NCBI RefSeq assembly: GCF_022919175.1
Contig: NZ_CP095043.1
Span: 3,224,001 to 3,288,000 of the forward strand
Length of the DNA: 64,000 bases
Reading direction: 5' to 3'
From: Leucobacter rhizosphaerae
GTDB lineage: Bacteria > Actinomycetota > Actinomycetes > Actinomycetales > Microbacteriaceae
Shown: positions 8,791 to 26,295 of the stretch, piece after piece
Layout of the letters: each line of letters starts with the position of its first letter
How positions within the stretch are numbered: position 1 is the stretch's first letter
Program-made: the position numbers and the translations under genes
Notes under the pieces: generated by a model
Seen by the model: only the letters and a program-made list of their open reading frames with translations
What the model was told of the DNA's origin: nothing
Database searches by the model: none

Positions 8791-9678
8791 ATGCACACAC
8801 CGCTCACACGAGTCGGATTCATCGGGCTCGGCGTCATGGGCGAGCCGATGGCGTCGAACATCGCGGCCTCCGGGACGTTCGACCTCGCACTCTTCGATGT
8901 CGACACCGCCCGCGCGGCGGAGCTCGCTGCGCGACTCGGGGTCTCGGCCGTCGCCGATATCGCGGGTCTTGCCGACCGGGACGTCATCGTCACGATGCTT
9001 CCGACGAGCGCGATCGTCCGCGGCGCCCTGCTCGACGACACCGGCCGACCCCGGATCCCCGCGGCACCCGGCACCGTGTTCGTCGACATGAGCTCGTCCG
9101 ATCCCCTCGAGACCGTCGAGACCGGTCGGCTCCTCGCCGAGGCGGGCTATGCGCTCGTCGATGCGCCGGTCTCGGGAGCGCGGGAGCGGGCGATGACCGG
9201 CACCCTCGCCATCATGCTCGGCGCCGACGACGACGCGGCCGCCGAGCGCGCGATCCCGGTGATCGACACGATGAGCTCGCGCATCTTCCGCACGGGCGGG
9301 CTCGGTACCGGTGACACCATGAAGGCGCTGAACAACTTCGTCGCCGCGGCCGCGTTCACCGCCGCCTCGGAGGCCCTCATCGCGGGACAGGACTTCGGGC
9401 TCGATCCCGCCGTCATGACCGAGATCTTCAACGCGTCGACCGGGCAGAGCTTCGTCACGACGCACGTGCTGCCGGATCACGTTGTCGGTGGAGCCTACGG
9501 GAGCGGGTTCGCACTCCCGCTCTTCACGAAGGACGTGCGGATCGCGCAGCGCGTGCAGCAGGCCGCGAACCGGAGCGCGCCCGTCTGCGATGCGGTGACG
9601 GGGGCGATGGGCGACGCGCTCGAGGCGCTCGGCAACGTCGACCACACCCATGCCTTCGAGTTCTGGCGGGATCGCTGA
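8791..9678 (+). CDS. Beta-hydroxyacid dehydrogenase (3-hydroxyisobutyrate / tartronate-semialdehyde reductase family)
   Basis: 295 residues, a normal length. The N-terminal Rossmann motif is GFIGLGVMGEPMASNIA. The substrate loop DAPVSGARERAMTGTLAIMLG and catalytic Lys segment GTGDTMKALNNFVAAA (Lys of MKALNN) are intact. The enzyme should oxidise or reduce a small beta-hydroxyacid/semialdehyde with NAD(P). A strong ribosome site (ggggaaagga) sits in the 27-bp gap after the CMD gene, and the next gene starts one base after its stop. The operon link to a TRAP carboxylate transporter suggests a hydroxy- or keto-acid substrate taken up by that transporter; the precise substrate is unknown. Confidence 0.85.
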   Translation: MHTPLTRVGFIGLGVMGEPMASNIAASGTFDLALFDVDTARAAELAARLGVSAVADIAGLADRDVIVTMLPTSAIVRGALLDDTGRPRIPAAPGTVFVDMSSSDPLETVETGRLLAEAGYALVDAPVSGARERAMTGTLAIMLGADDDAAAERAIPVIDTMSSRIFRTGGLGTGDTMKALNNFVAAAAFTAASEALIAGQDFGLDPAVMTEIFNASTGQSFVTTHVLPDHVVGGAYGSGFALPLFTKDVRIAQRVQQAANRSAPVCDAVTGAMGDALEALGNVDHTHAFEFWRDR

Positions 9679-9679
9679 C

Positions 9680-10267
9680 ATGTCCACGTCACCTGTTCCC
9701 GACTCCACGGCGCTCGCCGCCGGGGCACCTGGCACCGCGGCCGCCGCGACCGGCATCGACCGGGCGCTGCAGCGCCTGAGCGCCGGACTCGGTGTGCTCG
9801 CCGCGAGTGCGCTCGTCGTGCTGATGCTCGCCACGGTCGTCGACGTGCTCGTCCGCTGGATCTCGCGGTCCAGTGTGCCCGGCATGATCGAGGTCGCTGA
9901 GACCGCGCTCGTCACCTCGGTGTTCCTCGGCCTCGCCTGGACCTCGATGCAGGGCGGCCACGTGGCCGTCACCATCGTCACCGACCGGCTCCGCCCGCGG
10001 ATGGCGCGGATCGTCTCCTCGCTGATCTGGCTGCTGAACGCCGGCATGCTCGCCTGGATGACGGTCGCCTCCGTGCTGCGCGCGATCCAGTCGACGACCC
10101 TCAACGAGACACGGTTCGGGCTCGTGCAGTGGTCGGTCTGGCCGCTGCGCTGGATCATCGCGGTCGGCCTGCTCCTCTGGACGGTCGTCGCGATCGTGAA
10201 CCTGGTCCGCGTGCTCGGCGGCCGAACCGCCTACGGCGAAGACACGGAGGTCATCGCAGATGTGTAA
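9680..10267 (+). CDS. dctQ: TRAP transporter small permease subunit (DctQ)
   Basis: 195 residues from the ATG at 9680, one base after the preceding stop. Four hydrophobic helices follow the DctQ pattern: LGVLAASALVVLMLATVVDVLVRWI (the VDVxxRW motif near helix 1), ETALVTSVFLGLAWTSMQGGHVAVTIV (the HVxV motif), then two more helices. It pairs with DctM to form the membrane complex of a sodium-driven tripartite transporter. The N-terminal 30 residues are Ala/Thr-rich and unlike the family core. It lies between the dehydrogenase and dctM, all co-directional. Confidence 0.85.
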   Translation: MSTSPVPDSTALAAGAPGTAAAATGIDRALQRLSAGLGVLAASALVVLMLATVVDVLVRWISRSSVPGMIEVAETALVTSVFLGLAWTSMQGGHVAVTIVTDRLRPRMARIVSSLIWLLNAGMLAWMTVASVLRAIQSTTLNETRFGLVQWSVWPLRWIIAVGLLLWTVVAIVNLVRVLGGRTAYGEDTEVIADV

Positions 10268-10300
10268 TTCCCCGCACACCATTGTGAAAGGACGCACCCC

Positions 10301-11812
10301 ATGCTGATCTCGATGATCGTGCTGACGATCGTGGTGCTGCTGATCGTGCTGCTGATGCTCCGGATGCCAGTGGCGCTCTCGCTCGCGCTCTCGGGGGCTC
10401 TGGGTCTCGGGATCCTGCAGGGCACCAACTACGCCACCAACGTGCTCGGCTCGGTGCCGTTCACCGCCACAGCGAGTTTCTCGCTCACCATCATCCCGAT
10501 GTTCATCCTCATGGGCATGCTCGCCATGCGGGCGCGCATCGCGGAGCACGTCTTCGCTATCGCCAACCACGTCGTGAGTCGGTTCCCGGGCGGGCTCGGC
10601 GTCGCCACCGTGATGGCGTGCGCGGGCTTCTCCGCGGTCTCCGGATCGAGCATCGGCACGGCCGCGACGATGTCGAAACTGTCCGTCGGGCAGATGCGCG
10701 CGTACGGCTACCCGGCCGCGCTGGCCACCGGCATCGTCGCGATCGCTGGCACGCTCGGGGTCGTGATCCCGCCGAGCACGTTCCTCGTGCTCTACGCGAT
10801 CATGACGGGCGAATCGGTCGCGCAGATCCTGGCCGCGGGCATCATCCCGGGGATCCTATCGGCGCTCGGCTACATCGTCTACATCCTCGTCGTGGGGCAC
10901 CGGCAGATCGTGCGGCCGGAGACGACGCTGCCCGAGGTCGTCTCGGTGGCGCACGCGGACGCCGCGGTGCGGGCAGGGTCGCGCGAGGCCGCGGCAACCG
11001 GCGCGACGTCAGGGGCGGGGTCGGCGGGATCGGGGTCCGGGTCGGGATCGGGATCCTTCGGCGCCGCACCCGCCACGGTGCTCCCGAACACCCCGAACAC
11101 CACCGCGGTGAAGCAGGCCTACGGGCGCACGGTGCGGAATCTGCCCTGGCGCGGGCTGTTCCGTCTCGGGATCATCTTCCTGATCATCCTCGGCGGGATG
11201 TTCTCGGGGGTCTTCACCTCGACCGAGTCGGCCGCGATCGCGGCGTTCGTCGCGCTGCTGATCCTGCTCTGGGAGTTCCGGCGCGACGGCTGGAACACGA
11301 TGTGGTTCAACGTGAAGGGCGCCCTGCTCGACACCGCGCAGACCACCTCGATGGTGTTCATGATCCTCGTCGGGTCGAGTGTGTTCTCGACGTTCCTGAT
11401 CGCGGCGCACGTGCCCGACACCGTGACCACCTGGGTCGCCGGGCTCGACATCCCGCCGTTGCTCACCATCGGGCTGCTCCTCCTACTGCTCCTGCCGCTC
11501 GGCACGGCCCTCGACGAGATCTCCGTGCTGATCATCACGATCCCCATCATCTACCCGATTGCGATGGAACTCGGCTTCGACGGCATCTGGCTGGGGCTGA
11601 TGATCGTGAAGCTCACGGCCATCGGCATGGTGACTCCACCGGTCGGCATGACGTGTTTCGTCGTATCCGGAACAACGGGGGTGCCCACGGAGACGGTCTT
11701 CAAGGGGGTGCTGCCGCTCATGCTGATGGACCTCGCCGTCTCGGCGGTGCTGTTCTTCGTTCCGGCGATCACGCTCTTCCTGCCCTCGCTCGTCGCCCAG
11801 AGCGCGGGCTGA
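10301..11812 (+). CDS. dctM: TRAP transporter large permease subunit (DctM)
   Basis: 503 residues, about 60-70 longer than most DctM proteins. Family motifs are present: the N-terminal membrane anchor with LRMPVALSLALSGALGL, FSAVSGSSIGTAATM, GTLGVVIPPSTFLVLYAIMTGESVAQILAAGIIPG, and the C-terminal LTAIGMVTPPVGMTCFVVSG. It is the ion-coupled transport subunit. The extra length comes from an insertion at about residues 205-262, between transmembrane blocks. The insertion contains a Gly/Ser repeat (about 239-252) and Thr/Pro-rich sequence, probably a cytoplasmic or periplasmic loop. The start ATG at 10301 follows gaaagga. Confidence 0.88.
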   Translation: MLISMIVLTIVVLLIVLLMLRMPVALSLALSGALGLGILQGTNYATNVLGSVPFTATASFSLTIIPMFILMGMLAMRARIAEHVFAIANHVVSRFPGGLGVATVMACAGFSAVSGSSIGTAATMSKLSVGQMRAYGYPAALATGIVAIAGTLGVVIPPSTFLVLYAIMTGESVAQILAAGIIPGILSALGYIVYILVVGHRQIVRPETTLPEVVSVAHADAAVRAGSREAAATGATSGAGSAGSGSGSGSGSFGAAPATVLPNTPNTTAVKQAYGRTVRNLPWRGLFRLGIIFLIILGGMFSGVFTSTESAAIAAFVALLILLWEFRRDGWNTMWFNVKGALLDTAQTTSMVFMILVGSSVFSTFLIAAHVPDTVTTWVAGLDIPPLLTIGLLLLLLLPLGTALDEISVLIITIPIIYPIAMELGFDGIWLGLMIVKLTAIGMVTPPVGMTCFVVSGTTGVPTETVFKGVLPLMLMDLAVSAVLFFVPAITLFLPSLVAQSAG

Positions 11813-11815
11813 CCG

Positions 11816-11845
11816 GCGGCGTCCGCGCTCGTGCGCGAACGCCGC
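11816..11845 (+). other. Intra-operon hairpin between dctM and dctP
   Basis: Outer arms gcggcgt/acgccgc enclose an inner stem gcgc-tcgt-gcgc. No T-run follows. It begins 4 nt after the dctM stop, in the only long gap (158 bp) of the operon. It could protect the 3' end of the upstream message or partially stop transcription, letting the binding-protein gene be expressed at a different level. Confidence 0.45.
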
Positions 11846-11970
11846 ACCAGCGTGCGCCGTTCAGCAACCTCGGGCGACCCGCACCACCCAAGAATGAAAT
11901 CACCCCGCCGTTCCGATCGGCGCCTGGCGGCCCCGGATCCCCGGCGGCGGGACACCACGAAAGGACAACG

Positions 11971-13137
11971 ATGTTCTCATCACCCACACACACCCGGCGG
12001 ATCGGCCGCCTGAGCGCCGCGGCCGCGATGATGGCGGTCGCGGGCCTCGCCCTCGCGGGATGCTCCGGCATCACCAACGCCGGCGGCGGCTCGGGCGACG
12101 GCTCCGGCGGCGGTTCGGGGGAGACGGTGACGTTCACCCTCGCAACGGGTGCCCAGGCCGACACCCCGAACGCCGCCGTGCAGGAGTGGTTCATGGATCG
12201 GGTCGAAGAGGTGACCGAGGGACGGATCACCTTCGAGCGCACCGCAACCGAGGCGCTGTGCAAGGCGGCGGAGGTCGCCGACTGCGTGCGCGACGGACGC
12301 GCGCAGATCGGGGTCACGGTCCCGGACTACACCCCGCAGTACTTCCCCTCGACCAGCATGGTCAGCATCCCGTTCCTGAGTCAGAACGCGCAGGCGGCGA
12401 TGCAGTCGATCTACGATCTCCACAACGACTACGAGCCGGCCGTGGAGATCATGGAGCGCAACGGGCTGCACCACGTCGCGACGTGGCCGGTCGGTCGATT
12501 CCTCCTGGGCGGCCACGACCCCATCGAGAGCACGGAGCAGTTCTCCGGGGCTCAGGTGCGGGTGTCGGGGCCGATCATCCAGCAGGCGATCGGCGATGCC
12601 GGGGCGAACATCGTGGCGATCACCGCACCCGAGACCTACGAGGCGGTGGAGCGCGGGGTGGTGTCGAACGTCGGGGGAGCCATCGACTTCCCGGTGAACT
12701 ACAAGCTCATGGAGCTGCTGCCCGCCTGGACCGACCCCGGGATCGGACAGTACTCGACCTTCGGCATGTGGGTGAACGCCGAGGCGTACAACGGGTTGCC
12801 GGATGACCTGCGCGAGCAGTTCGATCAGGTGGCGGAGGAGCTCAACACCGGTGCCGGGATCGAGGCGTTCAACGAGGTGGCCGCGGGCCAGTGCCAGCAG
12901 ATGCTCGACTCGCCGTCGGTGGACTCGCTCTCCGCGTGGTCGGACGACGCGACGCAGGCGTGGAAGGACGCGCTCGGCGAATCGGGGCAGCAGATGTGGA
13001 TCGACCTCGCGACCGAGCAGGGGCTGCAGGACGCGGAAGGGGTGCTCGACGAGTACATCGCCGGACTCGAGCAGTACGACGACGTCGCCTACGACGACGC
13101 GACGAGCGCCTGCGTGGCCTCGTTCGCGGACCGCTAG
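11971..13137 (+). CDS. dctP: TRAP transporter solute-binding lipoprotein (DctP)
   Basis: 388 residues from the ATG at 11971 (aaaggacaacg upstream); the frame upstream of it overlaps dctM and is not real. The N-terminus is a lipoprotein signal, with lipobox LALAGC placing the acylated Cys near residue 30, then a Gly/Ser tether, as expected for a Gram-positive-type binding protein. The mature domain shows the DctP pattern: AVQEWFMDRVEEVTEGRITFE, then GAQVRVSGP with the conserved Arg that usually salt-bridges a substrate carboxylate. Three Cys in the mature part are unusual for the family. It is last in the operon, whereas P-Q-M order is more common. Confidence 0.88.
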   Translation: MFSSPTHTRRIGRLSAAAAMMAVAGLALAGCSGITNAGGGSGDGSGGGSGETVTFTLATGAQADTPNAAVQEWFMDRVEEVTEGRITFERTATEALCKAAEVADCVRDGRAQIGVTVPDYTPQYFPSTSMVSIPFLSQNAQAAMQSIYDLHNDYEPAVEIMERNGLHHVATWPVGRFLLGGHDPIESTEQFSGAQVRVSGPIIQQAIGDAGANIVAITAPETYEAVERGVVSNVGGAIDFPVNYKLMELLPAWTDPGIGQYSTFGMWVNAEAYNGLPDDLREQFDQVAEELNTGAGIEAFNEVAAGQCQQMLDSPSVDSLSAWSDDATQAWKDALGESGQQMWIDLATEQGLQDAEGVLDEYIAGLEQYDDVAYDDATSACVASFADR

Positions 13138-13179
13138 GCCCTCGCTTGGGGCGCGCCGGCCACAGCCCCCCTCCCATCG

Positions 13180-13231
13180 AGTGAACGCAAGTGCACCGTG
13201 TGATCGTCCGCACGGTGCACTTGCGTTCACT
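13180..13231. terminator. Perfect 21-bp inverted repeat between convergent genes
   Basis: Left arm 13180-13200 and right arm 13211-13231 are perfect complements around a 10-nt loop (tgatcgtccg). It lies between the stop of dctP (13137) and the stop of the HtaA gene (13227), which ends inside the right arm. The position suits a bidirectional, Rho-independent-like terminator, but no T-run follows on either strand. The arm sequence (gtgaacgca...gcacc) recurs as a half-site at 5106-5122, suggesting a dispersed palindromic repeat. Confidence 0.6.
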
Positions 13232-13748
13232 TGTGAGTGGGGTGCGCGGGGGTGGGCGGTGTGTCGACGATCTCGAAGTCGTCGAGCGGGGTGCCCTCCA
13301 CGTAGGGGCCGAAGAAGAGGTCCGCGCCGTCCGCCGTGAGCGCGAGGCCGGATCCGATGCACTGCTGGCCCGATGGATGGAACGCCGCGATCGTGGCGAG
13401 GTCGACACGTGCGTCCGGGTCGTAGGGGTCCCGGATCGAGAGCACCCACCCTCCGGCGCGCGGTTCGACCGCGGGGTCGGCGATCCGGAGGTCGAGCACC
13501 CCGCCGTGACCGAGAAATCGCACGGTGCCGCGGAAGCGCCGGCTCCCGGTCGTGTGCGCGCTCGCCGCGGGAACACCCGCTCCTGCACTGGTTCCCGCAC
13601 CCGCATCGCCGCTCGGCGCCGCAGCGAGCGGGAACACCGCGCCAGACTCCTGCAGCTCCGCACCCGCCTCCGCGGTCACCGAGCCGTCGGCCATCGCGCG
13701 GATGTACCCGAGGAACGACGCCTTGATGCCCCAGTGCAGCGCGCTCAC
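13227..13748 (-). CDS. Stand-alone HtaA-type haem-binding domain protein, predicted cytoplasmic
   Basis: 173 residues covering one HtaA domain (PF04213): ALHWGIKASFLGYIRAMADGSV at residues 3-24, then FRGTVRFLGHGGVLDLRIADP. The conserved Tyr (GYI) and His (LGHGG), which bind haem in corynebacterial HtaA, are both present. HtaA proteins are normally secreted or membrane-anchored. This one starts directly with the domain (GTG at 13748) and has no signal peptide or transmembrane segment. The GTG overlaps the stop of the LysR gene by 4 bp, so the two are translationally coupled. Next to a P450 operon, a role in haem delivery, storage or sensing for that enzyme is a reasonable inference, not proven. 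Confidence 0.8.
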   Translation of the reverse strand: MSALHWGIKASFLGYIRAMADGSVTAEAGAELQESGAVFPLAAAPSGDAGAGTSAGAGVPAASAHTTGSRRFRGTVRFLGHGGVLDLRIADPAVEPRAGGWVLSIRDPYDPDARVDLATIAAFHPSGQQCIGSGLALTADGADLFFGPYVEGTPLDDFEIVDTPPTPAHPTHK

Positions 13749-14668
13749 GCGGCTCCCGGCCAGGCGATCGATCCGGCGAACTCGATGAGCGCGGAGACCC
13801 GATCCGGCGTCTCGGACGACGACGACCAGACGACGTCGATGCCCACGGGCGCGACCGGCGGCGAGATCTCGCGCGTCACGACCGGAGTGCCCTCGTAACT
13901 CCGATCATTCGCGACCCGCTGCACGAGCACGCCGTACCCGAGCCCGCGCCCCACGAGCGTGCGCACCGCCTCGAAGTTCGCGGTACGGTGCCGGATCCTC
14001 GGGGTCAGGCCCCGGTCGGCGAACATGGACAGGGTGTGCTCGCTCGACGGCGGGGCGTCGAAGAGGATCAGGTCGTCGTCGACGAGTTCCTGCAGCTCGA
14101 TGGTCCCGTGCGCAGCGAGCCGGTGGTCGGCGGGCAGGAGCACGTGCGCGGGCACCTCGTAGAGCCGCCGACGCAGCGGTGCGCCCGGTACCAGCGTGCT
14201 GTAGACGAACGCGAGATCCACCTCGCCGGACTCGATCCTCCCGCGCAGCTGATCGTGCGTCACCTCGGAGATCTCCAGTTGCACGAGCGGGTGCGCGCCG
14301 CCGAACTCCGCGAGCAGCGGGGGCAGGATCACGGGCGCGAGTGTGGGGTAGCAGGCGATGGTGATCGGCCCCGCGAGCTCACCCGCGGGCGCCTGCACGC
14401 CCGCAGCGAGCGCGGTGGCCGACTCCAGAAGACGCCGCGCCTGCGCGAGGATCGCCTTGCCGCTGCTCGTGAGGGTGAGGCCGTGCGCGCGTCGGCGCAC
14501 GGTCAGGGGGGTGCCGAGGGCGCGATCCAGCTCGGAGAGCGCCTCCGACAGCGCGGACGGCGACACGTGCAGCGCTGCGGCGGCCGCCGCGATGCTCCCC
14601 GCGTCGGCCGCCGCGACGAGATACGACAGCTGACGCAACGTGTAATCGGGTGCGCGCGTGTGAGACAT
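13745..14668 (-). CDS. LysR-family transcriptional regulator
   Basis: 307 residues, typical length. The N-terminal winged helix is TLRQLSYLVAAADAGSIAAAAAALHVSPSALSEALSELDRALG, followed by the linker helix and a substrate-binding-protein-like effector domain (PITIACYPTLAPVILPPLLAEF). It is divergent from the P450 fusion with 106 bp between start codons, the classical LysR position, so it is expected to control that operon and itself. A 10-bp direct repeat, catactcgga, occurs at 14666-14675 (over its own start codon) and 14730-14739. The HtaA-domain gene is coupled to its 3' end. Confidence 0.9.
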   Translation of the reverse strand: MSHTRAPDYTLRQLSYLVAAADAGSIAAAAAALHVSPSALSEALSELDRALGTPLTVRRRAHGLTLTSSGKAILAQARRLLESATALAAGVQAPAGELAGPITIACYPTLAPVILPPLLAEFGGAHPLVQLEISEVTHDQLRGRIESGEVDLAFVYSTLVPGAPLRRRLYEVPAHVLLPADHRLAAHGTIELQELVDDDLILFDAPPSSEHTLSMFADRGLTPRIRHRTANFEAVRTLVGRGLGYGVLVQRVANDRSYEGTPVVTREISPPVAPVGIDVVWSSSSETPDRVSALIEFAGSIAWPGAA

Positions 14669-14739
14669 ACTCGGATCTTCCGTTCTCTTTGATCGACAAT
14701 CCCCGCTTTTGCCGATGTGTTGGGACGATCATACTCGGA
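14666..14739. promoter_or_regulatory. Divergent promoter region with 10-bp direct repeat
   Basis: The repeat catactcgga appears at 14666-14675 and 14730-14739, 64 bp apart, bracketing the lysR-P450 intergenic region. The spacing is about six helical turns, so both copies face the same side of the DNA. The first copy overlaps the lysR start codon, as expected for an autorepression site. I do not see a convincing -35/-10 pair. Confidence 0.4.
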
Positions 14740-14774
14740 AGGGAGCGCTGTGCACTCGAGGATGAGGAGACATC

Positions 14775-17700
14775 ATGGCCGCACGACCCGCACCCGTCGC
14801 CGACTGGGTGACCATCGCCGAACTGCATCGCGATCCGTTCCCGATCTACGAGCGTCTTCGCGCCGAGGGCGGCGTGCACTGGGTGCCGGCCGTCGGGCGC
14901 TACCTCATCACGAGCTACGCCGCCGTGCACGAGACCGAGCTCGACCAGGAGATCTACTCCGCGAACGAGGAGGGGTCCCTCCAGATTCGGGCGATGGGAC
15001 ACTCGATGCTGCGGCGGGACGATCCCGAGCACTACGTCGAGCGTCGCGCCTGGCAGCCCGCGCTGCGCCCCGGCATCGTGAAGCGCACGTGGACCGGGGT
15101 CTTCGAGCGCAACGCCGACCGGTACCTCTCGGAGCTCGCCGAGAAGGGACCCGGGGCCGATCTCATCTGGGACTTCGCCGCTCCCTACGCCGCCGAGAAC
15201 CTGCGGCAACTGCTCGGTCTGCACAACGCCGATCAGTCGGACCTGCAGCGCTGGTCGCAGACCATGATCGACGCGACCGGCAACTACGCGGACGACCCCG
15301 AGGTGTGGGCGCTCGGCAAGGCGTCGTTCGACGAGGTCGACATCGCGCTCGACGAGATGCTGGCCTGGCACGCCGCGCACCTCGACGACAACCCGACACT
15401 CATCGCGCAGCTCCTCCGCGCCCCGGGTGAGACGATGCCGCTCGAACGGATCCGCGCGAACATGAAGATGTCGATCGGGGGCGGCCTCAACGAGCCCCGC
15501 GATGCCATCGGGGTGGCGGCCTGGGCGCTGCTGAGCCACCCGGAGCAGCGGGACGCCGTGCTCGCGGACGCGGGTCTGTGGCCCGCCGTGTTCGAGGAGA
15601 CGATCCGGTGGGTCGCCCCGATCGGGCTCTACTCGCGCCAGGTGACGCGGGACACCGAGCTCGCGGGTGTGCACCTCCCTGCCGGTGCGCGTCTCGGGAT
15701 CTGCATCCTCTCGGCCAACCGCGACGAGCGTATCTGGCCGGACCCGGACCGCTTCGACATCCACCGCGAGGTCGCCCCGCACCTGGCCTTCGGCAAGGGA
15801 GTGCACGTCTGCCTCGGCGCCTGGGTGGCGAAGGCCGAGGTCGCCGCGGTCGGGCTCCCCGAGCTCTTCGGGCGCTTCTCCGGGCTCGCGTTGCGGGAGC
15901 AGGATCCCGCGGAGATCGCGGGGTGGGTGTTCCGCGGCATGACGAAGCTCCCGGTCACCTGGGACGCGGTCACGGCCGGCTCGGCACCGCGGGCGGCCGC
16001 CGCGGTCGAGGCCGCACCGGAGCGCGCAGCGCGCATCACGATCGTGGGCGCGGGGCCTTCGGGATGCTTCACCGCCCAGGCGGTGCGGCGGGCGCTGCCG
16101 AACGCCCGGATCGACCTCATCGACGAGCAGCCGGTTCCGTTTGGTCTCGTGCGCTACGGCGTCGCCGCCGATCACCAGGGCACCAAGTCGGTCGCGCGGC
16201 AATTCGAGCGCGTGTTCGACGACCCCGACGTGCGCTTCCACGGCAATGTGCGGGTCGCCGCCGACGGCTCAGGAGACGCCACTCTGGAGCAGCTCGCCGC
16301 GTGCAGTGACGCGGTGGTGGTGGCAACCGGGCTCGCGGGTGACCGGGTGCCCGAGATCCCCGGCATCGACACGCCGGGCGTGCGCTGCGCCGGAGAGCTG
16401 ACGCGCCGGCTGAACGGACACCCCGATGCCCCGCCCGCCGAGCCGCTCGGCCGCTCCGCCGCGATCATCGGCCACGGCAACGTGGCGATGGACCTCGCGC
16501 GCCTGACGGCGAGACGAGACTTCACGGGCAGCGACATCGATGACGCCGCGCACGAGCGGTTGGCGCAGGGGCTCCGCGAACTCCACCTCATCGGGCGGAG
16601 CGCTCCCGACGAGGCGAAGTTCGACCCGGTCATGGTGCGGGAGCTCGCGTCATTGCCGGGCGTCGCCCACACGGTGCACGGCGTCGATTTCGGCGCCGCC
16701 CCGGTCGGCAAGCACGCCCGGCTCGACGCGATCCGGGATCTTGCCGAGCAGCCCGATCCGGCATCGCCGACGCTGCGGGTGGAGTGGTGGTTCGGGGCCC
16801 GACCGGTCGAGGTGCTCGGCGGCGATAGCGTCACCGGGGTGCGGATCGCGACCGCCGACGGGGAGCGGACCCTCGGGGTCGACGCGGTGATCACGGCGAC
16901 CGGCTTCGCGGCCACGGCTGCGCAGGTGGCGGCGATCCCGGTCGCGGCGGGCGCGCACCCCGACGGCCGCGCCGGCGACCGGCGCTACACCGCGGGATGG
17001 CTGCGCCGCGGACCGCGGGGAACGATCCCGGATCAGCGCGACGACGCCAGGCAGCTGGCGCGCCTCATCGCCGAGGAACTGGCGCCGACGCTGCGGGGCA
17101 CGGCCGACCCCGGCGGGTTCACGCCGCCCGCGCACGCCGTCGACTTCACCGGCTGGCGGCGCATCGACGTGCTCGAACGCCTCGGAGCCGCCCCGGGCCG
17201 CGTGCGCGCCAAACTGCCGAGCCGCGCGGAGCAGGTCGCGGCGGCAGGCCGCACGGACCTGGAGCTGCCGCCCGCACCCGCGCACCGTGGCAGCGCGCAC
17301 GCCTGGGAACGGCCGGTCACGATCCTCTTCGCCACCGAGTCGGGCGGCGCCGAGCTCGCGTCCGAGGACCTGCGGCGCCAGTTCGCTCCGGGTGCCGACG
17401 TCCGGGTGCTCGACGCGTCCGAGACGGAACCGCACGACCTCGATCCCGACCGCCTGCACCTCGTGCTCTGCTCGACGTACGGCGACGGAGAGCTGCCGAC
17501 GGGCGCGCGAGCGCTGCACGCGGCGCTTCTCAAGAGCGAACTGGACCTCGCCGGCCTTGCATATGCCGTCTTCGGCATGGGCGATCGCAGCTACGCCCAC
17601 ACCTACTCCCGCGGCAGCGAGCTGCTCGACGCGGCGCTCGCCGAGCGCGGCGCTCAGCGGGTCGGGGAGTACGGCCGTCACGACGCCGGCGGCTCGACGG

Positions 17701-17795
17701 ACGCCTCCGATGCCGCGGTCGAGTGGCTCGAGGGTGTGCTGGGCGCCGTGGACGAGCAGGGATCCCCAGCCCACGATCCAGCGCGGGTCGGCTGA
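14775..17795 (+). CDS. Self-sufficient cytochrome P450: P450 / adrenodoxin-reductase-type flavoprotein / flavodoxin triple fusion
   Basis: 1006 residues from the ATG at 14775 (gaggaga upstream). Residues 1-400 are a class I-type P450: ExxR at 275-278 (ETIR), and haem loop FGKGVHVCLG at 339-348 with Cys346 as thiolate ligand. Its I-helix reads IGGGLNEPRDA (234-244), with Glu-Pro where most P450s have the acid-Thr pair. Its N- and C-terminal segments (RDPFPIYERLRAE, GWVFRGMTKLPVTW) resemble the guaiacol O-demethylase GcoA (CYP255A) as I remember that sequence. Residues 418-800 are an FprA/adrenodoxin-reductase flavoprotein: FAD motif IVGAGPSG (423-430), PFGLVRYGVAADHQGTKSV, NADPH motif IIGHGNVAMD, GWLRRGPRGTIPD. 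Residues 847-990 are a flavodoxin: ATESGGAE, STYGDGELP, FGMGDRSYAHT. Electrons should flow NADPH-FAD-FMN-haem in one chain. First gene of an operon with formaldehyde dehydrogenase. Confidence 0.93.
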   Translation: MAARPAPVADWVTIAELHRDPFPIYERLRAEGGVHWVPAVGRYLITSYAAVHETELDQEIYSANEEGSLQIRAMGHSMLRRDDPEHYVERRAWQPALRPGIVKRTWTGVFERNADRYLSELAEKGPGADLIWDFAAPYAAENLRQLLGLHNADQSDLQRWSQTMIDATGNYADDPEVWALGKASFDEVDIALDEMLAWHAAHLDDNPTLIAQLLRAPGETMPLERIRANMKMSIGGGLNEPRDAIGVAAWALLSHPEQRDAVLADAGLWPAVFEETIRWVAPIGLYSRQVTRDTELAGVHLPAGARLGICILSANRDERIWPDPDRFDIHREVAPHLAFGKGVHVCLGAWVAKAEVAAVGLPELFGRFSGLALREQDPAEIAGWVFRGMTKLPVTWDAVTAGSAPRAAAAVEAAPERAARITIVGAGPSGCFTAQAVRRALPNARIDLIDEQPVPFGLVRYGVAADHQGTKSVARQFERVFDDPDVRFHGNVRVAADGSGDATLEQLAACSDAVVVATGLAGDRVPEIPGIDTPGVRCAGELTRRLNGHPDAPPAEPLGRSAAIIGHGNVAMDLARLTARRDFTGSDIDDAAHERLAQGLRELHLIGRSAPDEAKFDPVMVRELASLPGVAHTVHGVDFGAAPVGKHARLDAIRDLAEQPDPASPTLRVEWWFGARPVEVLGGDSVTGVRIATADGERTLGVDAVITATGFAATAAQVAAIPVAAGAHPDGRAGDRRYTAGWLRRGPRGTIPDQRDDARQLARLIAEELAPTLRGTADPGGFTPPAHAVDFTGWRRIDVLERLGAAPGRVRAKLPSRAEQVAAAGRTDLELPPAPAHRGSAHAWERPVTILFATESGGAELASEDLRRQFAPGADVRVLDASETEPHDLDPDRLHLVLCSTYGDGELPTGARALHAALLKSELDLAGLAYAVFGMGDRSYAHTYSRGSELLDAALAERGAQRVGEYGRHDAGGSTDASDAAVEWLEGVLGAVDEQGSPAHDPARVG

Positions 17796-17893: not shown

Positions 17894-18979
17894 ATGGTGT
17901 ACCGAGTTCAGGGTGTTGTCGTTCGCGAGAAGAACGCCCCCGCGACCATCGAAACGGTGATCGTGCCGGATCCGGGCCCGGGCGAGGCCGTCGTCGACGT
18001 GCTCACGAGCGGCGTCTGCCACACCGACCTGCACTACCAGCAGGGCGGCATCAACGACGACTTCCCCTTCCTCCTCGGCCACGAGGCGACGGGCCGCGTC
18101 GCCGCGGTCGGCGAGGGCGTGACCGAGGTCGCGGTGGGGGATCGCGTCATCCTCAACTGGCGCGCCGTCTGCGGCACCTGCCGCGCGTGCGCGAAGGGCC
18201 AGCCCCAGTACTGCTTCGCGACGCACAACGCGACGCAGAAGATGACCCTGGAGGACGGCACCGTGCTGTCGCCGGCGCTCGGGATCGGTGCCTTCATCGA
18301 GAAGACGCTCGTCGCTGCCGGCCAGTGCACGAAGATCGACGAGGAGTCGGACGCGGCGGCCGTGGGGCTGCTCGGCTGCGGGGTGATGGCCGGGATCGGC
18401 GCGGCGATCAACACGGGCGAGGTGCAGCGCGGCGAGTCGGTGGCGGTCATCGGGTGCGGCGGCGTCGGCACGGCCGCGATCGCGGGCGCGCAGCTCGCGG
18501 GGGCGACCACGATCATCGCCGTGGATATCGACGACGCGAAGCTCGAGCAGGCGAAGCGCTTCGGCGCGACCCACACCGTGAACTCGCGGCAGCAGGACGC
18601 GGTCGAGGCGATCCGCGAGCTGACCGGTGGCCACGGCGCCGACGTCGTCATCGACGCGGTCGGCCGGCCCGAGACCTACACGCAGGCCTTCTACGCGCGT
18701 GATCTCGCGGGTCGTGTGGTGCTCGTCGGAGTGCCGACGCCCGACATGCAGCTCCAGCTGCCGCTCCTCGACGTCTTCGGGCGCGGAGGATCGCTGAAGT
18801 CCTCCTGGTACGGCGACTGCCTGCCCAGCCGCGACTTCTCCATGCTGATCGACCAGTACAAGCTCGGCCGCCTCGACCTCGACGGGTTCGTCACCGAGCG
18901 CATCGGCCTCGGCGACGTGGAGGCCGCGTTCGCCCGCATGGGCGAGGGCACCGTGCTCCGATCGGTGGTCGTGCTGTGA
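17894..18979 (+). CDS. mscR: S-(hydroxymethyl)mycothiol dehydrogenase (mycothiol-dependent formaldehyde dehydrogenase)
   Basis: 361 residues, the exact family length. Zinc-dependent alcohol dehydrogenase signatures are intact: catalytic zinc ligands in [13 protein letters not shown] and [15 protein letters not shown]; structural zinc Cys in [23 protein letters not shown] motif [20 protein letters not shown]. The segments [17 protein letters not shown] and [23 protein letters not shown] are hallmarks of the mycothiol-dependent class rather than general alcohol dehydrogenases. It oxidises the spontaneous adduct of formaldehyde and mycothiol with NAD. Its position 98 bp after the P450 fusion, with its own gaaagga site, indicates that the P450 reaction releases formaldehyde, i.e. 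O- or N-demethylation. The next gene overlaps by 4 bp. Confidence 0.92.
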
Positions 18980-19617
18980 GCGGGGTCGAGCCGGCAGCGC
19001 GCATCGAACGCCTCGTCACGAGCGGCACCTTCTCGCTCGACGGCGGCACGTGGGACGTCGACAACAACGTGTGGATCGTGGGGGACGACACCGAGGTCGT
19101 GGTGATCGACCCCGCGCACGATCCCGCCGCCATCGCCGCCGCGGTGGGGGACCGCATTGTTCGGGCGATCCTGCTCACGCACGGGCATGACGATCACGTC
19201 CGCGCCGCGCGCGAGACGGCCGAGCTGCTCAGGGCGCCGATCCACCTGCATCCCGCCGATCGCATGCTCTGGGACAGCGTGCACGACGCCGCCCCCGACG
19301 TCGAGCTCGCGGACGGTACTCGGATCACCGTCGCCGACGTGGACCTGCAGGCGCTGCACACCCCGGGGCACTCGCCCGGGTCCACCTCGTTCGTGGCCCC
19401 TCGGCTCGACGCGGTGTTCTCGGGCGACACCCTGTTCCAGGGGGGACCCGGGGCGACCGGCCGCTCGTACAGCGACTTCCCGACGATCATCACGTCGATC
19501 CGGGACCGCCTGCTCGCGCTGCCGGAGGAGACCGTGGTCTACACCGGGCACGGCGACACCACGACGATCGGTGCCGAGGCGCCGCACCTGCAGGAGTGGA
19601 TCGGCCGCGGGCACTAG
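18976..19617 (+). CDS. Metallo-beta-lactamase-fold hydrolase coupled to mscR
   Basis: 213 residues. GTG start overlaps the mscR stop (GTGA), so translation is coupled. The metal motif [11 protein letters not shown] is the family's HxHxDH with a Gly variant; later metal ligands appear in [19 protein letters not shown] and [12 protein letters not shown]. This is the glyoxalase-II-like subgroup. Genes of this type sit next to mscR in many actinobacteria and are proposed to hydrolyse the formyl-mycothiol product to formate and mycothiol. That role would complete formaldehyde removal in this operon, but is inference from position. Confidence 0.88.
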
Positions 19618-21760: not shown

Positions 21761-23215
21761 CTAGGCGTCCTCGCCGGTGCCCGGGATCGCGACGGCGGCG
21801 GTGAGGGGCTTGCCCTCCCGCGTCAGCCGGCGCTTCGTGACCTGCCACATGATGGCGAGCGCCACGAACCAGATCGGCGTGAAGACGAGCGGCATCCGAG
21901 TGTCGTCGGCGAGGGCGAGCGTCACGAGGATGAACGCGAAGAACACGAGCACCGCCCACGGCACGATCCGGGGGAGCGGGGTCTTGAATTTCGATCCCGC
22001 GTGCCGCTCCGGGTGCTTGCGCAGGTACTGGATGAAGCTGATCGCGATCATGCTCCAGATGAACAGGATGAAGGTCGACGCGACCGATGTCACGAACGTG
22101 AAGGCCTCGATCACGCTCTCGCCGAGCAGCAGGATCGGCACCGACGAGAAGACGAACACCGCGGAGAAGAACACGGCCCGGCGAGGCACGCCGCGGCTGT
22201 CGGTCAGCGCGAATCCGCCGGGCGCGTGCCCATCGTGAGCGAGCGCGTGCATCATGCGCGTGCCCGAGTAGAACCCGGAGTTCGCGCTGGAAGCCGCAGA
22301 GGTGAGCACCACGATGTTGATCGCGAATGCCGCGGCCCCGAAGCCGGCGTAGGCGAAGGTGGTCACGAACGGGCTCTGATCCGGATCGAGCTTGTCCCAC
22401 GGGGTGATCGCCATGATCACGGTGAGCGCACCGATGTAGAAGATGAGCACCCGCACGACGATCGAGTTGATGGCCCGCGGCAGATTCTTGTGCGGATCCT
22501 TGGTTTCGGCCGCGGCCGTGCCGACGAGCTCGACGCCGATGAACGAGAAGATCCCGAGCTGGAAGCCGAGCACAAAACCGCCGAGGCCGAACGGGAACAT
22601 GCCGCCGTGATCCCAGAGGTGCGCGAGCGAGGAGCGGGTGCCCGTGTCGGGGTTCTCGAACCCGATCATGAGCAGGACGATGCCGGTCACGATGAGCGCG
22701 AGAATCGCCACGATCTTGATGATCGAGAACCAGAACTCGAACTCGCCGAAGAAGCGCACCGGCTGCAGGTTCAGGATCGTGAGCACGGCGGCCGTGATGA
22801 GCGCGGGTACCCACGCGGGGATCGATGCGTTGATGTAGGCGACGTAGCTCGTGATCGCGATGATGTCGGCGACGCAGATCACGACCCAGGTGATCCAGTA
22901 CGTCCACGACACGAAGTAGCCGGCCCACGGGCCGATGAGGTCCTTCGCGATGTCGCCGAAGGTCTTGTAGTTGAGGTTCGACAGCAGCAGCTCGCCGAGC
23001 GCACGCATCAGGAAGAACATCATGCAGCCAATGACCGCGTAGATGAAGAGCACCGAGGGGCCGGTGAGGGAGATGACCTTGCCGGAGCCGAGGAAGAGGC
23101 CGGTGCCGATGGCCCCGCCGATCGCGATCAGCTGCAGGTGCCGGTTCGAGAGCCCGCGCTGGAGCTCCTCGCCGGGCGCGCTCGTTCCCGCGCCGGCAGG
23201 CGTGTGCTGTGTCAT
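21761..23215 (-). CDS. Amino-acid permease, APC superfamily, CycA-like (copy 1)
   Basis: 484 residues from the ATG at 23215, chosen for the GGAGGGG site upstream; an in-frame start 63 bp earlier adds no homology. About 12 transmembrane segments. The N-terminal motif QRGLSNRHLQLIAIGGAIGTGLFLGSGK is the amino-acid-transporter signature, closest to E. coli CycA (D-serine/D-alanine/glycine) and its AroP/LysP relatives. Other CycA-like stretches are FSFIGVELVGTAAAETKDP and VVLTSAASSANSGFYSGTRM. Proton-coupled import of small neutral or D-amino acids is likely. It is a tandem paralogue of the next gene, 84 bp apart on the same strand. Confidence 0.85.
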   Translation of the reverse strand: MTQHTPAGAGTSAPGEELQRGLSNRHLQLIAIGGAIGTGLFLGSGKVISLTGPSVLFIYAVIGCMMFFLMRALGELLLSNLNYKTFGDIAKDLIGPWAGYFVSWTYWITWVVICVADIIAITSYVAYINASIPAWVPALITAAVLTILNLQPVRFFGEFEFWFSIIKIVAILALIVTGIVLLMIGFENPDTGTRSSLAHLWDHGGMFPFGLGGFVLGFQLGIFSFIGVELVGTAAAETKDPHKNLPRAINSIVVRVLIFYIGALTVIMAITPWDKLDPDQSPFVTTFAYAGFGAAAFAINIVVLTSAASSANSGFYSGTRMMHALAHDGHAPGGFALTDSRGVPRRAVFFSAVFVFSSVPILLLGESVIEAFTFVTSVASTFILFIWSMIAISFIQYLRKHPERHAGSKFKTPLPRIVPWAVLVFFAFILVTLALADDTRMPLVFTPIWFVALAIMWQVTKRRLTREGKPLTAAVAIPGTGEDA

Positions 23216-23299
23216 GATCTCGTCCCCTCCGATGTCATCCGACCTGTGAACCGTAGCGAACCGGGTGCGGCAACGCAAACGTCGGCCGCACCCGGAAGC

Positions 23300-24739
23300 T
23301 CAGTCCTCGTCGAGCGGGTGCGGGATCGTCGGCACCGCCGCGGTCAGCGGGCGTCCGTCGCGGAGCAGCCGGCGCTTCCGCAGCTGCCACAGTGCGGTCA
23401 GGATCAGGAACCAGACGGGAGCCGCGAGGAACGGGGCGCGGGTGTCGTCGCCGTAGAGCAGCGTGCCGGCGATGAACACGAAGAATCCGAGCACGAGCCA
23501 CGGGGCGATGGTCGCGAGCGGCATCTTGAACTGCGAGGCCGCGTGGCGCTCCGGGTGGCGTCGGCGGTAGACGATGTAGCTCACGACGATCGACCCCCAG
23601 GTGAAGAGGATGAGCGTGGCGCACATCGACGACACGAAGGTGAACGCCGCGATCACCCCGTCGCCCGCGAAGAGCAGCGGGATCGCGGAGAACAGGAACA
23701 CGCAAGTGAAGAACACGGCCTTGCTCGGCACGCCCCGGTTGTTCGTCCACGCGAACGCACGCGGCGCGTGGCCGTCCTTCGACAGCCCGAAGAGCATGCG
23801 CGTGCCCGAGTACAGGCCGGAGTTCGCGCTCGACGCGGCGGAGGTGAGCACCACGAGCTGGATCGCGAACGCCGCGAGTCCGAAGCCCGCGACCGCGAGG
23901 GTGGAGACGAAGGGGCTCTGATCCGGTGCGATCTTCTGCCACGGGGTGACGCTCATGATGACCACGAGGGCACCCACGTAGAAGATGAGGATGCGGATGA
24001 CGATCGAGTTGATCGCCTTCGGGAGCGTCTTCCGCGGGTTCTCGGTCTCGGCGGCCGCGGTGCCGACGAGCTCGACGCCGATGAAGGAGAAGATGCCCAT
24101 CTGGAAGCCGAGTACGAACCCGCTCGCCCCCATCGGGAACATGCCGCCGTGCTCCCAGAGGTTCGCGATCGAGGCCACGTCGCCGTCCGGGCTCTGGAAT
24201 CGCGTCACGATGAGGATCAGGCCGACCGCGATGAGCCCGAGGATCGCGACGATCTTGATGATCGCGAACCAGAATTCGGTCTCCCCGAAGATCTTGACCG
24301 GCTGCAGGTTCAGCACGGTCAGCACGACCGCGGTGATGAGGGCGGGCAGCCAGCTCGGGATCGCCGGGTTGAACCACTGCACGTACGCCGTGATGGCCAC
24401 GATGTCGGCGACGCAGGCGATGACCCACGAGAACCAGTAGTTCCAGGACACGAAGAAGCCGGCCCACGGGCCGAGCATGTCCTTCGCGATGTCGCCGAAG
24501 GTCTTGTAGTGCAGGTTCGAGAGCAGCAGCTCACCGAGCGCGCGCATGATGAAGAAGACGAAGAATCCGATCACCATGTAGACGAAGATGATCGACGGGC
24601 CGGAGACGCTGATGAGTTTGCCGGAGCCGAGAAACAACCCGGTGCCGATCGCACCCCCGATGGCGATCAGCTGCAGATGCCGGTTCTTGAGACCGCGCTG
24701 CATCTCGCCGTGCGGCGCGGTGGTCTCGGTGGTGGACAT
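23300..24739 (-). CDS. Amino-acid permease, APC superfamily, CycA-like (copy 2)
   Basis: 479 residues, ATG at 24739. Same architecture as copy 1 and closely similar along its length: QRGLKNRHLQLIAIGGAIGTGLFLGSGKLIS, FSFIGVELVGTAAAETENP, VVLTSAASSANSGLYSGTRMLFGL. The latter ending and FVYMVIGFFVFFIMRALGELLLSNL match E. coli CycA particularly well. It lies between the decarboxylase gene (62 bp upstream on the same strand) and copy 1, so the three may form one transcript that imports an amino acid and decarboxylates it. Confidence 0.87.
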   Translation of the reverse strand: MSTTETTAPHGEMQRGLKNRHLQLIAIGGAIGTGLFLGSGKLISVSGPSIIFVYMVIGFFVFFIMRALGELLLSNLHYKTFGDIAKDMLGPWAGFFVSWNYWFSWVIACVADIVAITAYVQWFNPAIPSWLPALITAVVLTVLNLQPVKIFGETEFWFAIIKIVAILGLIAVGLILIVTRFQSPDGDVASIANLWEHGGMFPMGASGFVLGFQMGIFSFIGVELVGTAAAETENPRKTLPKAINSIVIRILIFYVGALVVIMSVTPWQKIAPDQSPFVSTLAVAGFGLAAFAIQLVVLTSAASSANSGLYSGTRMLFGLSKDGHAPRAFAWTNNRGVPSKAVFFTCVFLFSAIPLLFAGDGVIAAFTFVSSMCATLILFTWGSIVVSYIVYRRRHPERHAASQFKMPLATIAPWLVLGFFVFIAGTLLYGDDTRAPFLAAPVWFLILTALWQLRKRRLLRDGRPLTAAVPTIPHPLDED

Positions 24740-24801
24740 GACACTCCCTCGTGTGGCGGCCGGGTCCGGCCGAGTGTTCGGATGCGATGGATCGGGCGGG
24801 T

Positions 24802-26295
24802 TCAGGCGACGACGCGGAAGGTGTCGAGTGCGGGATCGCTCGCGCCTCGGACGTACCCGGACGGGGCTGCGGCGGTGGCGCGCAGGAAGGAGACGACCTC
24901 GGCATTCAGGATCTCACCCGGCAGCACGTTCGGCACACCCGGCGGGTACGCGGCGAGCGAGTCGGCCGAGACCCGGCCGACGGCCTCCGTGGCGGAGACG
25001 GTCTCGACGCCGCTGAAGAACGCCTCGCCGAGCCCCATGGCGCGCTTGCAGTTGCCGGGGAGCGCGATGGGCCGCTCCGGCTCGATCTCGGCCTCCGGAA
25101 GCGCCTGGAGCGCGTTCCAGAACCGGTCGACATCGAGCGGCGACGTCGCGCCGACGAGCAGCAGCAGGGCCGACGGCGTCGAGAGCTCGCAGTAGATCCG
25201 GTGGTCGCGCAGCAGCTCGTAGTGGGCGTCGCTGCCCGTGATCCCGGCTCCGCGGGTGTCGATGGCGATTTTGAAGGGGTCGTTGGCGATGGCGTCGGGA
25301 CTCGCCAGGATATCGGGCGTCGCGTCGCGGAATCGGCGATCGCCGCGCACCCGGGCGCGGACGTCCTCGGCGGAGGCGAGCGCGCGCTCGATCGCGTCGG
25401 GTCGAGTGGCGAGGTGGCGCCGCGCCTCGTCGAGCGAGGCGAGGAGGAGCGAGCTGCTGCTCGTCGACTGGTACGAGCGCATGACCCGGTCGACGAGGGA
25501 CTCGAGATCCTCGGCGAACGGGCCGTGGCCGAGGTGGAGCATCGCCGACTGCGTGAGGGATCCCGCAGCCTTGTGCGTGCTGGAGACGACGAGGTCGGCG
25601 CCGAGCCGGGCGGCGTTCGTCGGCAGCGCCGGGTGCATGCCGAAGTGGGATCCCCAGGCCTCGTCGACGATGAGCGGCACCCCGTGGCGATGCGCGACGT
25701 CCGCGATCGCGGCGACGTCGGCGACCGCGCCGAAGTAGCTCGGCGTGACGATGTACACGGCGGCGCTGGCGGGGTGCTCGGTGAGCGCCGCCTCGATCTG
25801 GGCGGCCGTGACCCCGTGCGCGGATCCGAGCCCAGTGTCCACGGCGCCGGTGACGAAGTGCGGTGTGATCCCGACGTGGGTGATGCCGTCGATCACACTC
25901 GAGTGCACGCTGCGCTGCACAACGAGCTCGGCGCCGAGGCCGCGCGCGACCGTCGTGGCGATGTGGTTGCCGCCGGATGCGCCGTTCGTGAGGAACCAGG
26001 TGCGGCTCGCGCCCCACGCGTCCGCGGCGAGCTGCTGGGCGCGCATGATCGGGGTGACTCGGCCGGGTGTCACGAGCCGCCAGGTTTGCTGGTCCACGCC
26101 GCTGAAGAGCATCGGGAAGTCCATCCGCAGGGCGTCGGCGCCCACGAGGCTCGCGACGCCGGGCGCGTTCTCCGCGTGCGCCTGGTGGGCGGGCACATGG
26201 ATCCGCTGCCAGTCGTGGGTCGAGAGCGACCTGAGTGCATCGGCGTACGGGGCCTCGAGCTGCGCGGGGTCGACGGGGGTGTGGGGCACAGGCAT
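24802..26295 (-). CDS. Orn/Lys/Arg decarboxylase-type PLP enzyme
   Basis: 497 residues. PLP-dependent fold-type I with the Orn/Lys/Arg decarboxylase major-domain pattern: HVPAHQAHAENAPGV (compare HxPGHxxG), FLTNGASGGNHIAT, IVDEAWGSHFGMHPALP, and the Schiff-base Lys in VSSTHKAAGSLTQSAML. The C-terminal domain ends with AYPPGVPNVLPGE, also typical. It lacks the N-terminal wing domain of large E. coli-type inducible decarboxylases, fitting the short SpeA/Bacillus-type class. Substrate (Lys, Arg or Orn) cannot be settled by eye. Divergent LysR gene 87 bp away; CycA-like permeases downstream. Confidence 0.87.
   Translation of the reverse strand: MPVPHTPVDPAQLEAPYADALRSLSTHDWQRIHVPAHQAHAENAPGVASLVGADALRMDFPMLFSGVDQQTWRLVTPGRVTPIMRAQQLAADAWGASRTWFLTNGASGGNHIATTVARGLGAELVVQRSVHSSVIDGITHVGITPHFVTGAVDTGLGSAHGVTAAQIEAALTEHPASAAVYIVTPSYFGAVADVAAIADVAHRHGVPLIVDEAWGSHFGMHPALPTNAARLGADLVVSSTHKAAGSLTQSAMLHLGHGPFAEDLESLVDRVMRSYQSTSSSSLLLASLDEARRHLATRPDAIERALASAEDVRARVRGDRRFRDATPDILASPDAIANDPFKIAIDTRGAGITGSDAHYELLRDHRIYCELSTPSALLLLVGATSPLDVDRFWNALQALPEAEIEPERPIALPGNCKRAMGLGEAFFSGVETVSATEAVGRVSADSLAAYPPGVPNVLPGEILNAEVVSFLRATAAAPSGYVRGASDPALDTFRVVA

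Follow-up and report, generated by a model that had tools for sequence, protein, structure and literature searches.

Natural cytochrome P450 enzymes that carry their redox partners in one chain are prized, as they need no added partner proteins. Two such self-sufficient groups are described in the review PMC11173547, CYP102 (P450 BM3) with a reductase of the cytochrome P450 reductase (CPR) type and CYP116B, whose reductase contains flavin mononucleotide (FMN) and a [2Fe-2S] cluster. CYP176A1 of Citrobacter braakii, a class III system, is encoded in one operon with a flavodoxin and a flavodoxin reductase that are separate proteins (PMC9405906). In the class VI system of an RDX degrader, a flavodoxin stands N-terminal to the P450 in XplA, and the reductase XplB is the product of a separate gene. 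The window analysed here is a stretch of 64,000 nucleotides (positions 3,224,001-3,288,000 of contig NZ_CP095043.1, assembly GCF_022919175.1) of the single-contig, 3,337,834-base genome of Leucobacter rhizosphaerae. Positions 14775..17795 of its forward strand encode a 1006-residue protein in which a P450, an FprA-type reductase and a flavodoxin follow one another in a single chain.

The protein is probably a self-sufficient P450 of the CYP1232 family and an O-demethylase of the homovanillate type, whose modules would have been fused once or very few times. If this is true, the fusion is a new self-sufficient architecture made of FprA-type and flavodoxin modules, with more than 100 natural variants and a solved relative of the haem domain.

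The fused gene and its modules

The open reading frame (ORF) starts with an ATG, upstream of which lies GAGGATGAGGAGA, resembling a ribosome-binding site. The G+C content of its three codon positions (0.77/0.52/0.90) is as in the coding DNA of this genome. The Pfam domains p450 (E 1.9e-18), Pyr_redox_2 (1.1e-9) and Flavodoxin_1 (2.8e-21) were found in this order, all above the cut-off. An earlier sequence-only reading had proposed the same order in one intact chain, and this proposal stands, together with every motif quoted for it. A sequencing frameshift or chance joining of separate genes is ruled out by the presence of the same three domains in all 119 other listed homologues and at 55 of the 64 loci found in named genomes.

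Of 7,995 candidates scored in a protein search with the fusion, 271 matched at E values of 0.001 or less. The 120 matches listed, one of which is the window's own protein, are 979-1077 residues long, cover 96-100% of the query and contain all three Pfam domains; the other 119 are 60-88% identical to the window protein. Among the genomes sampled, 11 of the 299 from the bacterial family and 10 of the 396 from the order have the full-length fusion, the window's genome being counted in each. The scan of named genomes yielded the 64 loci mentioned above. Fusion-bearing genera include Leucobacter, Agrococcus, Microbacterium, Brevibacterium, Arthrobacter and Serinicoccus, and eight fused loci are gammaproteobacterial (Halomonas, Larsenimonas, Kushneria and Terasakiispira; best-segment identity 53-55%). 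The nine loci without a complete three-domain ORF comprise one at a contig end (L080), one with an incomplete reductase (L084), one in which only the flavodoxin was called (L100), three with the P450 alone (L095, L097 and L098), one with a distant P450 (L104) and two (L087 and L090) whose P450 and reductase-flavodoxin parts do not share one frame, either broken genes or sequencing errors. In L095, from Pseudoclavibacter, the P450 is the C-terminal part of a 753-residue ORF (8909-11170) whose first half has no Pfam match; a start-site error is possible. The 55 complete loci and the window make up the 56 fused loci counted below, and L022 and L028, the latter from the same species as L082, bring the number to 58. 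Flanks of up to 10 kb per side were examined (less than 9 kb on one side in 11 of the 56; the window is longer). Three long-frame loci from the scan of the bacterial family added no further FprA-type fusion: two read as FprA-like without flavodoxin or P450 motifs, and by the motif filter the third, L141, has no such frame.

All modules lie on the + strand. The P450 haem domain (about residues 1-399; 14775..15971) contains the I-helix motif GGGLNEP (15477-15497) and the motif FGKGVHVCLG (residues 339-348; 15789-15818) with the haem cysteine, Cys346, invariant in a 32-row alignment (A1). An Ala/Pro-rich linker (about residues 400-418; 15972..16028), variable in length among homologues, leads to the FprA/adrenodoxin-reductase-type domain for flavin adenine dinucleotide (FAD; about residues 419-825; 16029..17249), which in sequence searches matches FprA of M. 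tuberculosis (PDB 1lqt; phmmer E 2e-39). This domain contains the FAD motif IVGAGPSG (residues 423-430; 16041-16064), the NAD(P) motif IIGHGNVAMD (residues 564-573; 16464-16493) and the sequence GRSAP (16593-16607). A second variable linker (about residues 826-846; 17250..17312) is followed by the flavodoxin domain (about residues 847-990; 17313..17744), whose best match in the PDB is cindoxin (4oxx; E 3.4e-18) and whose FMN loops read ATESGGAE (residues 853-860; 17331-17354) and STYGDGELP (residues 900-908; 17472-17498). The FAD and FMN motifs are also conserved among homologues. The full chain was modelled with AlphaFold from an alignment (A2) of 53 fused proteins and the two separate proteins of L021, a split set described below. 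The mean predicted local distance difference test score (pLDDT) is 82.8 and the predicted template modelling score is 0.71; residues 405-413 of the first linker are below a pLDDT of 50. The structural matches of the model found by Foldseek are headed by PDB 6g71, followed by FprA in second place and by adrenodoxin reductase.

The nucleotide used by the reductase is less clear than the earlier assignment to NADPH implied. The IIGHGNVAMD motif on which it was based is present; motifs of this type cannot tell NADPH from NADH. In FprA, arginines bind the 2'-phosphate of NADPH. The two arginines of the M. tuberculosis sequence GRRGP are replaced by Arg-Ser in all 24 fused sequences examined and also in XplB. 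Because one of the two is a serine here, NADPH use is not assured. In the review PMC8081977, NADH is named as the reductant in XplB assays, and use of NADH, or of both nucleotides, by the fused enzyme is possible.

Haem-domain relatives and origin of the fusion

The haem domain is 59.9% identical over 392 aligned residues, nearly its whole length, to PDB 6g71, the structure titled CYP1232A24 from Arthrobacter. A P450 is placed in a family when its identity to a member exceeds 40%, and by this measure the P450 of the fusion is assigned to CYP1232. CYP1232A24 is the closest structure, the top structural match of the model, and shares the GGGLNEP motif. Its PDB chain is a P450 only, of 405 residues, whereas the fusion adds a reductase and a flavodoxin. 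CYP1232A24 is reported to O-demethylate 3,4-dimethoxyphenylacetate and homovanillate in papaverine catabolism (Dubiel et al., J Biochem, 2019). The next-closest haem domains by both sequence and fold are those of the aromatic O-demethylases GcoA and then SyoA, the structures of which were solved with guaiacol and syringol. They are about 26-30% identical to the fusion in structural alignments, and their PDB chains are without FprA or flavodoxin modules.

The P450 tree contained 99 sequences. Its 42 fused rows were taken from the listed homologues (21 of the 120) and from 21 loci, and its 55 rows with the P450 alone were picked by length and number from another set of 120 listed sequences and from loci. 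All fused rows group in one clade (support 100/97) with four "alone" rows of truncated or broken appearance; two of the four stop within the reductase domain, a third is labelled partial at its source and the last has an unrelated tail. CYP1232A24 falls just outside this clade among unfused rows (80/88), a placement that is unsure. In a tree of the reductase domain, all 24 fused rows are on one side of a branch (99/99).

The unfused relatives have a different set of neighbours. A gene for a [2Fe-2S] ferredoxin (Fer2) occurs at seven of ten unfused loci, directly downstream of the P450 in six and across a LysR gene in L139, and six of these seven also have a PdR-type reductase gene. (For L135 and L139 the ferredoxin and the PdR-type protein were examined with Pfam; those of the other loci were recognized by BLAST to L135.) No Fer2 gene was found near the fusion at any of the 58 fused loci. 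A PdR-type query against the same loci gave a single match, in the window at 62627, 45 kb away and 27% identical. Many unfused relatives of the lineage would depend on a [2Fe-2S] ferredoxin together with a PdR-type reductase, and since the ferredoxin gene is present at seven of ten unfused loci vs none of 58 fused ones, the redox partners were probably exchanged when the fusion arose. One fusion event accompanied by partner exchange is the simplest account of the trees and neighbourhoods, and if it is true, the lineage offers a case of redox-partner exchange in P450s in which unfused, ferredoxin-type relatives survive for comparison.

Several observations count against so simple a history. The four broken-looking rows cause the fused label to change four times in the P450 tree, in which the branch of GcoA is also very long. 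Three of the ten unfused loci (L036, L097 and L098) have neither a ferredoxin nor a PdR-type gene, and in L073, from Arthrobacter terricola, the fusion is closely preceded by another CYP1232-like P450 and a separate flavodoxin (8829-14011), an HtaA-like gene lying in between. Because of L073 and the three loci without partner genes, the history of the partners is possibly less simple than a single exchange.

Predicted reaction and gene neighbourhood

Judged by the intact motifs, two electrons from NAD(P)H would be handed on singly from the FAD of the FprA-type domain to the FMN of the flavodoxin and from there to the haem, all within one chain. The haem domain would activate O2 and hydroxylate an aromatic acid on the carbon of its methoxy group, giving a hemiacetal that would break down to the phenol and formaldehyde. 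The likeliest substrate would be homovanillate (4-hydroxy-3-methoxyphenylacetate); its product, homoprotocatechuate, would enter the hpa meta-cleavage pathway. Homovanillate O-demethylation is the best single guess because of the hpa gene context, a formaldehyde dehydrogenase gene in the window and the chemistry reported for CYP1232A24. If correct, the fusion would be a ready-made demethylase for lignin-derived aromatics.

The gene for homoprotocatechuate dioxygenase, hpaD, was found near the fusion in 21 of the 56 fused loci (9 Agrococcus, 4 Microbacterium, 2 other Actinomycetota and 6 of the 8 Gammaproteobacteria), with all 21 products over the HpaD cut-off. In a representative cluster HpaE also passes its cut-off, and HpaH and HpaI match below theirs. 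Genomes with HpaD carry one or two copies, from which the chance of proximity to the fusion is estimated at about 1%. The gammaproteobacterial clusters hold an hpaG-type gene different from that of the actinobacterial clusters, which argues against one inherited block. HpaD was also compared among 60 hand-picked genomes of the bacterial family (11 with the fusion, some genus mates and others): it occurs in all 11 fusion-bearing genomes vs 25 of 49 others (one-sided p 0.0018, relatedness not controlled). The window has no hpa genes close to the fusion; its genome has an hpa cluster at 1.03 Mb, with HpaD over the cut-off and HpaE, HpaH and HpaI below theirs.

The formaldehyde dehydrogenase gene (17894..18979, +) starts 98 bp past the stop codon of the fusion. 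Its product is an S-(hydroxymethyl)mycothiol dehydrogenase (TIGR03451, 651 bits; cut-off 512.9), for mycothiol-dependent formaldehyde oxidation, and is the genome's only copy over the cut-off. Its position fits demethylation, though it is unique to the window's locus: it was rejected as a conserved partner, occurring in one of 58 fused loci, the other two matches being 33-36% identical. The next gene, for a metallo-beta-lactamase-fold hydrolase (Pfam Lactamase_B; 18976..19617, +), overlaps it and for this reason is possibly an S-formylmycothiol hydrolase.

There are points that tell against homovanillate demethylation. No hpaD was found in the stretch examined in 35 of the 56 fused loci, the window among them; the positives are clumped in Agrococcus, Microbacterium and Gammaproteobacteria and amount to far fewer than 21 independent events, and none of them is from Brevibacterium or a named Leucobacter. 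The formaldehyde dehydrogenase, found beside the fusion in the window only and the sole copy in its genome, could be there by chance. In the P450 itself, the usual acid-alcohol pair (D/E-T) is replaced by NE.

Some of these points would fit an enzyme of the same kind that demethylates vanillate, veratrate, guaiacol or another methoxyarene, the hpa neighbourhood then being a general aromatic-catabolic island. The structures of the next relatives by fold, GcoA and SyoA, were determined with guaiacol and syringol, hpaD is missing near the fusion in the window and in the Brevibacterium loci, and the transporters beside the fusion vary in type (TRAP, MHS). This is nevertheless rather unlikely, as hpaD recurs beside the fusion in two distinct lineages, whose hpaG types differ, and the closest structure, CYP1232A24, reportedly acts on phenylacetates. 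The proximity of hpaD could also mean that the fusion makes homoprotocatechuate by ring hydroxylation of 3- or 4-hydroxyphenylacetate and is no demethylase, since the hpa pathway needs a hydroxylase for these compounds. A flavin monooxygenase of the phenol 2-monooxygenase type (the family being named from one member) is already present in 13 of the 56 fused loci, the nearest structures are of O-demethylases (CYP1232A24 reportedly so), and in the window formaldehyde dehydrogenase lies downstream, which together make the hydroxylase improbable.

The replacement of the acid-alcohol pair raises the question of whether the enzyme is reductive like XplA, or driven mainly by peroxide. XplA also is without the pair, according to PMC8081977, and the reductase domain is related to XplB, but the same pair is missing from the O-demethylases GcoA (QE) and CYP1232A24 (NE; reportedly a demethylase), and such chemistry is very improbable here. 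There is also little likelihood that the modules are poorly coupled, the electrons coming from another reductase or flavodoxin or crossing from one chain to the other in a dimer. In favour of this, the P450 and the flavodoxin are at opposite ends of the chain, unlike in BM3, the linkers are short and variable, and the genome encodes another reductase-flavodoxin pair. Against this, 55 of 64 loci, spread over two phyla, preserve the order of the modules, the FAD and FMN motifs are conserved, and the kind of ferredoxin gene that accompanies unfused relatives is missing near all 58 fusions. Homovanillate-type O-demethylation by a self-sufficient chain remains the favoured reading. The earlier reading had seen correctly that the architecture is real, and it proves to be widespread; kinship with CYP1232A24 and the homoprotocatechuate context, both of which point to function, had been overlooked.

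Upstream of the fusion, a divergent gene (13745..14668, -) encodes a LysR-type protein by Pfam, likely the regulator of the fusion; 38 of the 56 fused loci have such a LysR gene no more than two genes away and on the opposite strand, and a LysR neighbour is common to several unfused loci too. The 106-bp intergenic region (14669..14774) is presumed from its sequence to hold the promoter and operator. No sigma-70 consensus site was found in it, and a promoter and terminator scan gave nothing useful. Next to the regulator is the gene of a single-domain, 173-residue HtaA-like protein (13227..13748, -; Pfam HtaA, E 1.8e-18), in which Tyr15, His81 and Tyr149 are invariant (32 of 32). Such a gene is within two genes of the fusion in 29 of the 56 fused loci, vs none of the ten unfused loci. 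In a survey of HtaA (PF04213) in 26 hand-picked genomes of the bacterial family, each of the three fusion genomes of one genus has a single HtaA domain, located at the fusion, and none occurs in two genomes of that genus without the fusion; in a second genus the pattern is the same, with one fusion genome and two others. The link is weakened by the frequency of HtaA domains in the window's genus regardless of the fusion (G158 and G253, without it, carry five to six). It is further weakened by genus g20, where fusion genome G020 is without a PF04213 match and both matches in G255 lie elsewhere than at the fusion, and by the fusion genomes G014, G291 and G096, which have no HtaA match at the fusion. 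By protein clustering, no HtaA-like gene is near the fusion in the eight Gammaproteobacteria. The guess, from the name HtaA, is that the protein is a cytosolic haem-binding accessory.

These observations can be joined into a broader account, which is tentative. A CYP1232 demethylase lineage would have lost its [2Fe-2S] ferredoxin system and gained an XplB-like reductase and a flavodoxin at its C-terminus in one event; the resulting new class of self-sufficient P450 would have moved between Actinomycetota and Gammaproteobacteria of the Halomonas type, as the enzyme through which homovanillate enters catabolism. In many Actinomycetota, a dedicated HtaA-domain protein of the cytosol would provide or retain its haem.

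Farther upstream, a beta-hydroxyacid-dehydrogenase-like gene (8791-9678, +) is followed by genes of a TRAP transporter (DctQ, 9650-10267; DctM, 10301-11812; DctP, 11971-13137; all +), assigned by Pfam. The whole block (8791..13137) also adjoins the fusion in L022, L043, L060 and L085, and in L045 on the opposite strand; it may serve in the uptake of aromatic acids. At 21761-26289 (-), two amino acid permease genes adjoin a gene of the Orn/Lys/Arg decarboxylase family.

Comparison with described P450 classes

XplA/XplB had been taken for the only system with the same module types. This was too narrow, as the class III system of CYP176A1 has all three and the window's own genome contains a split set. 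In that set (L021, 8262-10043 and 6788-8017), an FprA-type reductase of 425 residues and a flavodoxin of 164 residues are encoded separately beside a divergent, distantly related P450. Plasmid searches revealed further reductase-flavodoxin pairs in Alphaproteobacteria. On a Nitratireductor plasmid (L132) the pair is beside ectoine transport genes, with no P450 annotated in the fetched stretch. Enterobacterial (Klebsiella) plasmids (L133) carry a reductase, a flavodoxin and an XplA-like P450, whose best PDB matches are XplA, as three genes with an MFS transporter. The fused reductase domain is 41% identical to XplB, which was found in the plasmid search next to a P450 that is essentially XplA (near-identical to 2wiv). 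The parts of class III are therefore widespread as separate genes, and here they form one chain.

The single chain had also been called an undescribed class. The order P450-FprA-flavodoxin is absent from the ten P450 classes of the review PMC11173547, and no title describing such a chain was found in the literature searched, in which coverage of subscription papers is thin, so that "undescribed" is not proven. A "flavodoxin fused to both the P450 and a flavodoxin reductase domain" is listed as a linking mode in PMC9405906; CYP116B3 is the example given there, and PMC11173547 assigns to its class a reductase with FMN and [2Fe-2S].

The fusion resembles CYP102 and CYP116B in being a self-sufficient single chain. 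It differs from class VIII (CYP102) in its reductase part, which matches Pyr_redox_2 and FprA, and from class VII (CYP116B) in that Fer2 is not among its Pfam hits, Pyr_redox_2 and Flavodoxin_1 being found instead; the Pfam and PDB matches rule out a reductase of the CPR or phthalate-dioxygenase type. With class VI (XplA/XplB) it shares a flavodoxin and an FprA-type reductase, but its reductase is in the chain and its flavodoxin is C-terminal. With class III it shares a P450, an FAD reductase and an FMN flavodoxin, the last having cindoxin as its best PDB match. CYP176A1 itself is of a different P450 family, and its partners are separate products of one operon, whereas the fusion is a single ORF of 1006 residues. 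As judged from sequence, the architecture is one of known class III parts, with a haem domain of a known family, joined in one chain.

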